From NCBI GenBank assembly GCA_949290355.1, contig CASERN010000008.1, forward strand, positions 124,001 to 188,000: DNA of 64,000 bases. The letters run 5' to 3'. The notes beneath the pieces are model-generated. The model saw nothing but the letters and a program-made list of their open reading frames with translations, was not told where the DNA came from and did not search any database. Shown in pieces: positions 17,388-25,469 of this stretch (its first letter is position 1; every line of letters begins with the position of its first letter). The stretch comes from an uncultured bacterium (GTDB taxonomy: Bacteria > Cyanobacteriota > Vampirovibrionia > Gastranaerophilales > Gastranaerophilaceae). Position numbers and translations under genes: made by a program.

Positions 17388-17930
17388 ATGAAAAACATAT
17401 TTAAAACTTTTTTTATTTTATTTAATTTACTTCTTATAACTCAAGGAGCATCTTACGCTATGGAAAATAAAATTAAATTTGACAAAGACACATACTACCT
17501 GTCAAATCCTGATAGTGAAACAAAAAATTATGATTACCTTTTGAAAGATGAAAATATCGGGAACTGGCATACAAAACTTCAGCTTTCTAATTTCCCTGAT
17601 TTAACTAACCCGACAGATGCAGCAGCTCAGTATGCTCATGAAATTCAAGAAAAAACAAAAGGAGCATCAGTTTTAGTTTACCCTGATGCCTCAATTGTAG
17701 GATATTTAACTTTCCCGGAAAATAAAGAATATTACGAATACAATACCGCAATTTATCAACCGTCCAAAACAAAGGGGCTAGACAGATTTTTATACGGCAA
17801 AAGATTTTATTCATCTGAACTTGGCGGGCAAGAAGAAGCTCGAAAAAAAGCTATAGATTTTGCCGAAAAAAATAATAAAAAATACATGGAACTTATCAAT
17901 AAAGAAGCCCCCAGATACAGTGTTGATTAG
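17388..17930 (+). CDS. Secreted hypothetical protein, 180 aa
   Basis: The signal peptide MKNIFKTFFILFNLLLITQGASYA has cleavage after SYA. The mature domain is polar and aromatic-rich (KDTYYLSNPDSETKNYDYLL, VLVYPDASIVGYLTFPENKEYYEY, DRFLYGKRFYSSELGG), with a Lys/Glu-rich C-terminal helix. No Cys, membrane segment or recognised catalytic motif. Probably periplasmic. It is divergent from rfbC and convergent with the pilin-like gene, which it overlaps by four bases. Function unknown. Confidence 0.65.
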   Translation: MKNIFKTFFILFNLLLITQGASYAMENKIKFDKDTYYLSNPDSETKNYDYLLKDENIGNWHTKLQLSNFPDLTNPTDAAAQYAHEIQEKTKGASVLVYPDASIVGYLTFPENKEYYEYNTAIYQPSKTKGLDRFLYGKRFYSSELGGQEEARKKAIDFAEKNNKKYMELINKEAPRYSVD

Positions 17931-18712
17931 TATACCATATTCCAGCCGTTTCTGATTATAGAATATGAACAATATAAACTAAATAAAGACACTGCAGGTG
18001 CTAGGTCCTCATTAGAATATTCTCCTTCCTTTTTACATATCTTATCAACTTCATCAAAATTAAAACCATAAGAAGAAATATTTGCATTTTGCGAAATCTG
18101 AAGAAGAAATCTATCTCTGCCTGCAACGTTAGGACCTTTATCACAATTTACATCAAAATAAAAGTCGAAATGAGCATAATCCATATTACCCCATAATCCC
18201 AAAGTAACTCCGTCCTCAAATGCAATACATGCACCATCCTTTGTATAATATGATTTAAAATCACCGCTGCTCATACCAAATCCATTTCTTGTATCTTGAT
18301 AAAATTTGGTATTTTCAGCCACCGGAGTTAACCCAATTGCAGACGCTAAGTTATCAGCATTTATTCCATAAGACCCCAAATATCCAGAAGAAGAAGAAGC
18401 TGAAGGAGCATTAAAAACAATTACATTAGTATTTAAAAGGCTATCGACACCTTCATCAGCCATAACTTTTCTGAGGCTATTCTGTACAAAATTAACCTCC
18501 TTTTTAAATTGAGTAACCAAAACTTGCTTACGGTAATTATTGATTAAAGATGGCATAGTTAATGCTGCTACAACTCCGATAATCCCTAGAGTAATCAATA
18601 CCTCTGCTAACGTAAATCCCAAGCGTGCCGCTTGACCCGACACTAAACCTTTAAAGAATCCTCGAAACCCTTGTGGTGTAAGCTTTAAACTACCCCCCCC
18701 CCGAAAGTCCAT
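17927..18712 (-). CDS. Type IV pilin-like protein with a G10 tract at its start
   Basis: Prepilin-type protein: after a long basic leader comes GFTLAEVLITLGIIGVVAA, with cleavage expected between G and F. The C-terminal domain has the DVNCDKGPNVAGRDRF motif and the ending IIRNGWNMVY shared with the other pilin-like proteins here. The frame opens with an ATG at 18712, which has no good ribosome-binding site. The strong site AAGGAG (18742-18747) serves an ATG at 18730-18732 in another frame that ends shortly after the G10 tract (18693-18702). Eight or eleven Gs would join the frames. With ten, expression is probably low or off. Confidence 0.8.
   Translation of the reverse strand: MDFRGGGSLKLTPQGFRGFFKGLVSGQAARLGFTLAEVLITLGIIGVVAALTMPSLINNYRKQVLVTQFKKEVNFVQNSLRKVMADEGVDSLLNTNVIVFNAPSASSSSGYLGSYGINADNLASAIGLTPVAENTKFYQDTRNGFGMSSGDFKSYYTKDGACIAFEDGVTLGLWGNMDYAHFDFYFDVNCDKGPNVAGRDRFLLQISQNANISSYGFNFDEVDKICKKEGEYSNEDLAPAVSLFSLYCSYSIIRNGWNMVY
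18693..18702 (-). repeat. Homopolymeric G10 tract (C10 on plus strand), candidate phase-variable
   Basis: Ten consecutive G residues on the coding strand lie between the best start codon and the prepilin leader in an AT-rich genome. Tracts like this commonly change length by replication slippage. Confidence 0.7.
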
Positions 18713-18898
18713 ATTCTGTCAAATCTTTCCATAAATCAAAGCTCCTTTCTTTATAACTCAATTTTATCATATTTTAATAAAAGTTTCAACGCTTGTATAT
18801 TTAAATTGTAAAGATTAATTTAAAATTACCCAATTAAATGTGTTTGTGATACAATATTATCAAGTAATACAGAAAATTAAATGAGCTGGGGAGATAAA

Positions 18899-21519: not shown

Positions 21520-22266
21520 TTAATAATCCATTTTCCAACCATTACTCATTAAATGTTCAGTAGCACTTGTTGGACCGGAAGAATATATGTGCGGATTCTT
21601 TATTTTTCCATTTGAATCATACATATAAATAAAAAGATCTCTCCATAACTGATTTGGTCCTTTTTCCCCATTTACATCAACAGCAACTACAATACCTACA
21701 CTACCTAAATAACTCCCTAAAGGAGCAAAATAATATACAATACCATCATTAGCATAATAACCTGTAATACTTGATGACACAAATAAATCTCCTCCAATTG
21801 AAAGAATACCGGTAATATTCTGGTTATCAGTTATGTTGTTTAAAGAACATTTATTATTACTATCACATCTAAAGTTTGAAGATTTGTAACTTACGTCATT
21901 ACAAGCAGTACCTTTACAAGTTTTAACTACTTTCAAATACTGAGGTACAATTCGTTCAAAAACAGATGGATTCCCGTAATAATCTTCACAACCATTACCA
22001 TTAACTGATATATTATTTTCTAGGGTAAGAGTATAAGAACAAACTCCTTCAGAAAAAAGTGTAGTAGTTCCTAAATTAGCTGTTCCCTCGTCAGCTTGCA
22101 TTTTTGAAAACATATTTGAAGTTACATTAATTGCTTTTTTCAAACTTGTTGTATAAACCTGTTTTCTATGCTCAGCAATCAAACTCGGTAGAGTCATTGC
22201 TGCAACTACTCCAATAATACCTAGCGTGATTAGGACCTCAGCTAAAGTAAAACCGAATCTTTTCAT
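21520..22266 (-). CDS. Type IV pilin-like protein
   Basis: The 248-residue prepilin-like protein starts MKRFGFTLAEVLITLG, with a short basic leader, G/F cleavage site, Glu at position 5 of the mature form and a hydrophobic helix. The C-terminal domain contains Cys pairs (FSEGVCSYTL, NGCEDYYGNPSVF, KTCKGTACND) and a possible metal-binding loop VDVNGEKGPNQLWRDLF. It ends in LMSNGWKMDY, as does its paralogue at 24741-25469. The two share 80 identical bases over the leader-helix region. Likely a surface pilus or pseudopilus subunit. Confidence 0.88.
   Translation of the reverse strand: MKRFGFTLAEVLITLGIIGVVAAMTLPSLIAEHRKQVYTTSLKKAINVTSNMFSKMQADEGTANLGTTTLFSEGVCSYTLTLENNISVNGNGCEDYYGNPSVFERIVPQYLKVVKTCKGTACNDVSYKSSNFRCDSNNKCSLNNITDNQNITGILSIGGDLFVSSSITGYYANDGIVYYFAPLGSYLGSVGIVVAVDVNGEKGPNQLWRDLFIYMYDSNGKIKNPHIYSSGPTSATEHLMSNGWKMDY
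22153..22232 (-). repeat. 80-bp segment identical to 25356-25435
   Basis: A stretch of 80 bases within the 5' part of this pilin-like gene is identical to the same part of the pilin-like gene at 24741-25469. The flanking promoter regions are also similar. It is a direct repeat about 3.2 kb apart. Confidence 0.95.
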
Positions 22267-24088: not shown

Positions 24089-24741
24089 AATAAATGTCTT
24101 AGCCCATCTCTTAATGGATTTAACTTTGATTTTCTACCCTTGACAGGGTATAAATGGATAGGAATTTCTTTAATAGTATAATTCTTTTTTGCAAAAGTAA
24201 CAAAAAGCTCAGAAGCAAACTCCATGCCTGTGGTATTAAATTCAATATTATCTAAACAAGATTTTTTAAACATTCTCATACCACATTGAGAATCAGACAA
24301 TTTTGTTCCATAAAACAAATTTAAAATAAAAGTTAAAACAGGGGTTCCCAAATATCGATGTAAAAAAGGCATAGCCCCTTTATGAATAATACCTTTCAAA
24401 CGTGTTCCTGTAATCATATCAAAATCTTTTATTTCATTATAAAATCTGGGAATTTCCGAAAAATCATAGCTGTCATCTCCATCAGCCATAAAAATATATT
24501 TACCTTTAGCAGAATTAAATCCACACCTTAGAGCACTTCCATAACCAATTTGTTTGCAAAAAACAACTTTTGCACCATTGTTTTTGGCAATTTCAGCAGT
24601 ATTGTCGGTAGAATTATTGTCAACTACAATAATTTCCCCAGACACATTAATATCATCAAATGCCTTTAATGCTTTTGATATACATTTTTGAATATTATTT
24701 CCTTCATTATAACAAGGGATTACAACACTGATATCAATCAT
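24058..24741 (-). CDS. Family 2 glycosyltransferase (polyprenol-phosphate sugar synthase-like)
   Basis: The 227-residue GT-A-fold enzyme has ISVVIPCYNEGNNIQKC, IIVVDNNSTDNTAEIA, YGSALRCGFNSAKGKYI, the metal-binding DxD as MADGDDSYDF, and DSQCGMRMFKK. It resembles dolichol/undecaprenyl-phosphate mannose or glucose synthases without the membrane extension. I chose the ATG at 24741, which overlaps the pilin stop as TAATG; the frame extends 18 bases further upstream into the pilin gene. Coupling to the pilin gene suggests, but does not prove, a role in pilin or surface glycosylation. Confidence 0.9.
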   Translation of the reverse strand: MIDISVVIPCYNEGNNIQKCISKALKAFDDINVSGEIIVVDNNSTDNTAEIAKNNGAKVVFCKQIGYGSALRCGFNSAKGKYIFMADGDDSYDFSEIPRFYNEIKDFDMITGTRLKGIIHKGAMPFLHRYLGTPVLTFILNLFYGTKLSDSQCGMRMFKKSCLDNIEFNTTGMEFASELFVTFAKKNYTIKEIPIHLYPVKGRKSKLNPLRDGLRHLFYLVLALHKI

Positions 24742-25469
24742 TAATAATCCATCTTCCAACCATTACTCATTAAATGGTTAATTGGACTACTTTGATCTCC
24801 AGATTGGCAAGCCGATTCTGCATTGTGCCCACCTATTATATTTCCATTTTTATTTAAACACGCTTGCATTGCAAAAAGATCTCTACCTGATTCATTTGGA
24901 CCTTTTTCTCCGTTTACATCAACTTGAATATATATTGAATTATTTGCAGGAGCAAAATAATATATCATACCATCTGTTGTATAAAAACCTACTACACCTT
25001 GTCCATATATATCTTGAGAAGAACTAATAGTAGCTGGACCTATTCCACCATACAATGTACATTTATTATTACTATCACAATTTAGATATTTATCAAGCTT
25101 ATAAATAACATCACATTCCTGATTATTACAAGTCTTTACTACTTTTAGATACTTAGGAATGTATTCTTCAAATTTGGATGGATTTCCATAATTATCTTCG
25201 CATCCATTAACATTATGATAATTTGAATCAAATTTTATAGCACAAACAGCCTCAGATACAAATGAGGTATTTGCTAAATTTGTAACTGAATCATCTGCCA
25301 TCATTTTTTTAAACATATTAGACATAACATTCACAGCTTTTTTAGCACTTGTTGCATAAACCTGTTTTCTATGCTCAGCAATCAAACTCGGTAGAGTCAT
25401 TGCTGCAACTACTCCAATAATACCTAGCGTGATTAATACTTCCGCTAAAGTGAAACCGAACCTTTTCAT
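24741..25469 (-). CDS. Type IV pilin-like protein, paralogue of the 21520-22266 protein
   Basis: The 242-residue prepilin-like protein starts MKRFGFTLAEVLITLG, with the same Cys pattern (VSEAVCAIKF, NGCEDNYGNPSKFEE, KTCNNQECDV), the loop VDVNGEKGPNESGRDLF and the end LMSNGWKMDY. The leader and helix are nearly identical to the 21520-22266 protein and the middle has diverged. An Asn/His-rich insertion with AESACQSGDQSS lies before the end. Its stop overlaps the start of the GT2 gene. Likely pilus or pseudopilus subunit. Confidence 0.88.
   Translation of the reverse strand: MKRFGFTLAEVLITLGIIGVVAAMTLPSLIAEHRKQVYATSAKKAVNVMSNMFKKMMADDSVTNLANTSFVSEAVCAIKFDSNYHNVNGCEDNYGNPSKFEEYIPKYLKVVKTCNNQECDVIYKLDKYLNCDSNNKCTLYGGIGPATISSSQDIYGQGVVGFYTTDGMIYYFAPANNSIYIQVDVNGEKGPNESGRDLFAMQACLNKNGNIIGGHNAESACQSGDQSSPINHLMSNGWKMDY
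25356..25435 (-). repeat. 80-bp segment identical to 22153-22232
   Basis: Second copy of the identical leader-helix coding segment; see the pilin-like gene at 21520-22266. Confidence 0.95.

Follow-up and report, generated by a model that had tools for sequence, protein, structure and literature searches.

A run of ten guanines separates the well-initiated start codon of a type IV pilin-like gene from its prepilin motif in the 64,000-nucleotide stretch of Gastranaerophilaceae DNA analysed here (hereafter the window). Its most probable role, at a rough probability of 0.83 judged from the sequence, is that of a translational ON/OFF switch within a default-OFF, slipped-strand phase-variable pilin repertoire whose tracts equilibrate near a length of ten. 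Phase variation by tract slippage had been proposed for this copy in an earlier sequence-only reading, and it is the best-supported reading now that the same architecture has been found in dozens of paralogues and in more than 100 copies in relatives. Among the pilin genes of this genome the tract is the rule and not the exception, and the OFF state looks like a built-in default, ten being one base short, rather than one random state of three. Homopolymer slippage as a source of phase variation has been studied mainly in a few pathogens, and the exceptionally large set of candidate phase-variable surface genes reported here is apparently undescribed.

The tract-bearing pilin gene of the window

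The locus lies on the minus strand. Its Shine-Dalgarno (SD) sequence AAAGGAG (18742–18748) stands 9 nt 5′ of an ATG (18730–18732), which is followed by ten codons, ten Gs (18702–18693) and a stop codon (18687–18685); ribosome-binding site, ATG and leader are common to paralogues genome-wide. The sequence-only reading had assigned the AAGGAG at 18742–18747 to the ATG at 18732 and had placed a stop shortly past the ten Gs, and both statements hold. In the OFF state the leader frame (18685–18732, MERFDRIWTFGGGVV) ends after 15 codons, and across tract lengths of 9, 10 and 12 it ends after 13–15 codons; with 8 or 11 Gs, the predicted ON lengths, it becomes a continuous prepilin of 267 or 268 aa from the first ATG, in agreement with the fusion foreseen for exactly these two lengths. 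No other G/C run of at least 7 occurs in the window, and a G10 appeared in none of 100 dinucleotide-preserving shuffles of it.

The pilin frame is open from a second ATG (18710–18712), which has no usable SD, as had also been noted. That this start is conserved and used, one of the refuting conditions named at the time, was rejected, since it is missing from the paralogues and no more than 7 of 147 OFF copies have an in-frame upstream ATG that is open; it is judged a chance codon.

The linker between tract and prepilin motif (18620–18692) is open in the pilin frame only and contains neither an ATG nor an SD-preceded start. At its conserved end (the GQAARLGF class), directly before the prepilin cleavage/methylation motif GFTLAEV (18599–18619), lies the dyad CAAGCG-GCA-CGCTTG (18620–18634), which is also found in paralogues and in other species. 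The mature protein (17927–18619) is type IV pilin-like. It exceeds the cut-off of TIGR02532 (21.8 vs 16.3 bits) and falls just below that of PF07963 (19.9 vs 21.2 bits), which three relatives surpass; a GFxxxE prepilin motif followed by a long hydrophobic helix is present, and among solved structures the family profile matches geopilins, PilA and GspG. An AlphaFold2 model (mean pLDDT 84.8) consists of a 52-residue N-terminal helix (4–55) and a sheet. With this model Foldseek returned no significant match, and VIA-align ranked type IV pilins first at a weak Z of about 4. The genome has one match to the prepilin peptidase family PF01478 and four above cut-off to the pilus-type assembly ATPases of PF00437.

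The whole pilin unit of 875 bp (17931–18805) sits between a 180-aa ORF and the gyrA promoter region; the pilin stop codon, overlapping with that of the 180-aa ORF, forms its end. In five relatives (L009, L010, L012, L164, L167) these flanks are intact and nearly adjacent and the unit is missing; pilin genes and their switches are therefore gained or lost as whole units. No target-site duplication is evident around the unit. When the gyrA-side pilin was sought in relatives for comparison of tract length, most proved to be without the gene, and the window locus has no close orthologue.

Tract repertoire and tract lengths

The window (C8:124001–188000) is part of a 1.85-Mb genome in 14 contigs, whose placement in the order Gastranaerophilales agrees with gyrA matches to Candidatus Gastranaerophilales MAGs that reach 98% protein identity. 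This genome contains 37 G/C runs of at least nine, vs 0.2–0.35 expected from composition; four are nine long, 29 ten and four eleven. Thirty-five of them lie 20–112 nt 5′ of a GFTLAEV-type motif and 3′ of an SD and ATG. A 36th, with the same leader at a contig end, may belong to one of the 35 as its second half, and a single tract, L123, is placed elsewhere. The coding strand carries G in about three quarters of the copies and C in the remainder. The genome encodes 53 pilin-like genes, about two thirds of which (35) bear a tract; the earlier remark that the other pilin-like genes have none is thus correct within the window, where there are two others (21520–22266 and 24741–25469), and wrong genome-wide. 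Where linkers are at least 60 nt long, the pilin frame is open in 34/34 cases and the other frames in 0/34. Four copies are ON at eleven (L094 with G11; L095, L096 and L115 with C11) and one (L116) is ON at G10, with two bases fewer 3′ of the tract. With these relatives ON in the same genome and lengths from 8 to 13 across the sets compared, OFF is the best-supported state of the window copy, as the sequence-only reading had it.

Of 288 family genomes, 233 have tracts, and across 33 species of the genus their number ranges from 0 to 176 per genome. Run lengths counted over 1.14 Mb from three relatives have a sharply bimodal distribution that falls to zero at 7 and peaks at 10: runs of 4 to 8 number 1482, 189, 9, 0 and 3, and runs of 9 to 13 number 4, 113, 6, 1 and 1. 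Exactly ten is the length of 129 tracts across 146 genus copies, of 15/15 in G015 and of 63/67 in G011. It had been held that a length invariant across strains would speak against switching; the peak at ten within the genus is indeed strong, but lengths are not invariant. Among about 16 aligned pairs of orthologous tracts from G001 and G011, only one or two differ in length, and L204_14316 has C11 where its orthologue has C10. Genus g41, unlike the genus of the window, has a modal length of 9–10, with the peak at 9, and named public contigs of other relatives show a broad spread from 9 to 13.

It is highly improbable that these lengths are an artefact of sequencing or assembly in which real tracts of 11 were undercalled. 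Long G runs are difficult to call and several contigs end at tracts, both as such an error would have it, but the non-pilin genes that are open at ten would become broken, and lengths from 9 to 13 occur in independent public assemblies. Those of the checked contig ends that recur in other loci are shared leader repeats; for this reason contig ends at tracts were also rejected as a sign of mixed lengths.

Surface-polysaccharide genes hold most tracts of g41; the functions they encode include glycosyl, pyruvyl and acetyl transfer and FkbM methylation. Six loci of this genus (L243, L244, L246, L248, L261, L262) have G/C tracts densely placed inside such genes; L262 has two tracts within one 973-aa ORF, and L246 has them in four similar AlgX-like genes in a row. 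Another leader class, at G011 and G015 loci (L187, L194, L199, L200, L201), lacks a near SD, has about 84 nt between start and tract and carries a repeated motif like CVEVSTCV (DNA GTGTCTACGCACGTAG). Three large proteins of about 660–680 aa that start with MVD and have the tract in their first codons (L225:14950, L209:15719, L237:15231) possibly form another switched secreted family; the one tested, L237:15231, has no Pfam match.

Tracts are nearly absent from genus g36 and most of g21 (family f1) and number about 100 in neighbouring genera, with MutS in both kinds. Loss of MutS was rejected as the cause of instability: the gene is present in all 60 family genomes tested, so that loss of repair offers no explanation. 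The count of G9 tracts was rejected as a mark of the group; tract count alone is not diagnostic, and placement and frame are, because other cyanobacteria have 0–86 such tracts in larger genomes. No tract-plus-pilin pattern was found in viral contigs.

Reading frame and possible routes past the tract

Frame was compared over 146 non-identical pilin copies of the genus, many of which are paralogues treated as independent, so that all p-values of this comparison are rough and overstate independence. The ON length is of the 8/11 class in 134 copies, of the 7/10 class in nine and of the 9/12 class in three. With one count per distinct flank-distance pair, the 8/11 class still comprises 63 of 75 (p = 2e-19, independence being overstated by paralogy), and 11 of the 146 genes are ON, vs one third under neutrality (p = 2e-13, paralogues counted as independent). 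The ATG-to-tract and tract-to-pilin distances each occur in all mod 3 classes, and their sum nearly always leaves ten one base short, in poly-C and poly-G copies alike.

Lengths near ten are likewise found in the 15 tract genes of the genus that do not encode pilins, but 10/15 are open at a 10-type length, vs 9/146 pilins (Fisher p = 9e-8, with the same overstatement). Tract length is not tuned to frame, because the non-pilin tract genes are mostly ten long and yet two thirds of them are open there; and since ten is common to non-pilins that open at ten, it is the pilin frame that is chosen against this length. Ten looks like the genome-wide slippage equilibrium, and the off-by-one frame like a property of the pilins. 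This contrast separates the readings, favouring DNA slippage with a mutational equilibrium over a programmed frameshift, although a frameshift could still apply to the pilins taken by themselves.

Known cases of programmed slippage by RNA polymerase occur mostly on A/T runs, and no A/T tract takes such a part here. That the DNA stays at ten while the polymerase adds or drops a base, giving a low and constant fraction of in-frame mRNA, would suit the very tight length, the constant one-base shortfall of the pilins and the near-equal lengths of the G001 and G011 orthologues. It is nonetheless unlikely: the non-pilin genes of the same genus argue that ten is not tuned to a frameshift, lengths of 8, 9, 11, 12 and 13 exist, some copies are ON in the DNA itself, and poly-G and poly-C behave alike. 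A –1 ribosomal frameshift at ten would likewise yield the pilin frame, but the equivalence of poly-G (Gly codons), poly-C (Pro codons) and all codon phases fits ill with a codon–anticodon slippery site, and programmed ribosomal frameshifting on the tract is the least credible of the alternatives.

The survey of start sites covered 161 tract/pilin copies, all chosen because their SD has 4 bases or more; in this preselected set the SD comprises 5–7 bases in 158. In the 135 OFF copies the OFF peptide has a median of 15 aa and its stop lies a median of 7 nt 3′ of the tract. Between tract and pilin, a start codon of any kind is absent from 78 of the 161 copies, and 114, the window gene included, have neither an ATG nor an SD-preceded start. 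An internal ATG with SD occurs in 20 copies (15/34 in the genome of the window) and one without SD in 26 more. In addition, about a quarter of the tract pilins carry a promoter-like TTGnnn-N16/17-TATAAT and a dyad (TATAATAGTGATAT..ATCAC) in the coding linker (L089, L094, L108, L117, L144, L235 and about 35 others), the TATAAT element being followed by GGAG and then by an ATG ahead of the prepilin. A similar promoter-like element lies 5′ of a tractless pilin in the window (at about 22.3 kb), as though leader sequence had been made out of a former promoter.

Such elements are what would be seen if internal starts or promoters served to translate the pilins, the upstream ORF and tract being a by-standing leader. 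This is very unlikely as a general account, given the 114 copies that offer no such start and the openness of the linkers in the pilin frame, which an untranslated leader would not need. The promoter-like or start-bearing linkers of about a quarter of the copies could, however, bypass the tract and count against its role as a gate, and the copies in the genome of the window with an internal ATG and SD, or with promoter-like linkers, may leak past it. Substitutions in the linker show no codon-position bias (338, 340 and 345), so that openness alone seems to be constrained and not the peptide sequence; this even spread is that of a freely varying linker peptide, as expected of a leader that is cleaved off.

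The proposed switch and known systems

If the tract is the translational switch favoured here, ribosomes would start at the ATG after AAAGGAG, read the short leader and cross the homopolymer, reaching the prepilin only at tract lengths of 8, 11 or 14. Slippage of DNA polymerase in living cells would hold the tracts near the genome-wide equilibrium of ten, and pilin genes framed one base short at that length would leave most pilins OFF in most cells. A one-base gain in a tract would turn one pilin ON and allow its expression; each gene is probably switchable by such a random one-base slip. The prepilin peptidase should remove the tract-bearing leader ahead of GFTLAEV, and in-frame changes of tract length would leave the mature pilin unaltered. 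The varied surface pilins may play their role under phage, immune or adhesion pressure. Counting against this account are the very tight lengths of the genus, tighter than in Campylobacter, the almost constant equality of G001 and G011 orthologous tracts, the presence of MutS and the even spread of linker substitutions over codon positions.

It is somewhat more likely than not that selection fixes the pilin frames one short while slippage keeps the tracts at about ten, such that cells display rare, random subsets of pilins; with up to 176 tracts, no larger set of homopolymer switches would then be known from a single genome. This would be a case of selection acting on which length means ON. 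Indeed, pilin and non-pilin tracts with the same modal length and different framing in one genome constitute a natural test of mutation bias vs selection in the control of switches. With phase variation on this larger scale, acting on the pilin genes of an uncultured, non-photosynthetic cyanobacterial relative from the gut, the cells of a gut population should differ strongly from one another in their surface pili. Metagenome assemblies would hide such differences because they show the commonest length only, and tract pilin genes are mis-annotated or truncated in databases.

The class of mechanism is already known from Campylobacter (PMC6321876) and Neisseria (PMC5953494). No report coupling the order Gastranaerophilales with phase variation was found in the accessible parts of the open-access literature; as far as that literature shows, the lineage, the target (pilin-like genes themselves), the number of tracts, the use of poly-C beside poly-G and the default-OFF framing are new. 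The poly-G/C phasome of Campylobacter is similar in its G/C homopolymers of about 9–10 (9G 53%, 10G 26%), its small AT-rich genome and its intragenic ON/OFF control of surface functions, and it shares with genus g41 the placement of tracts in polysaccharide-modification genes (PMC6321876). Campylobacter strains have 5–81 phase-variable genes (PMC6321876) and Neisseria genomes at most 90 (PMC5953494), whereas up to 176 tracts occur here. The present set also differs from that of Campylobacter in its sharper mode, at ten, and in a default-OFF frame that is consistent across one gene family.

In Neisseria opa and pilC the repeat lies in the leader or signal region and the mature protein is unchanged, opa being a multigene family and pilC a pilus-related gene. 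The pilin genes described here resemble both in their leader repeat and predicted unaltered mature protein, opa in forming a multigene family and pilC in their relation to the pilus; they differ in that dozens of pilin-like genes themselves carry the repeat, as G/C mononucleotides before a type III (prepilin) signal. Antigenic variation of Neisseria pilE/pilS, in which a surface pilin is likewise diversified, proceeds by gene conversion; here every gene is complete and has a putative slippage switch of its own.
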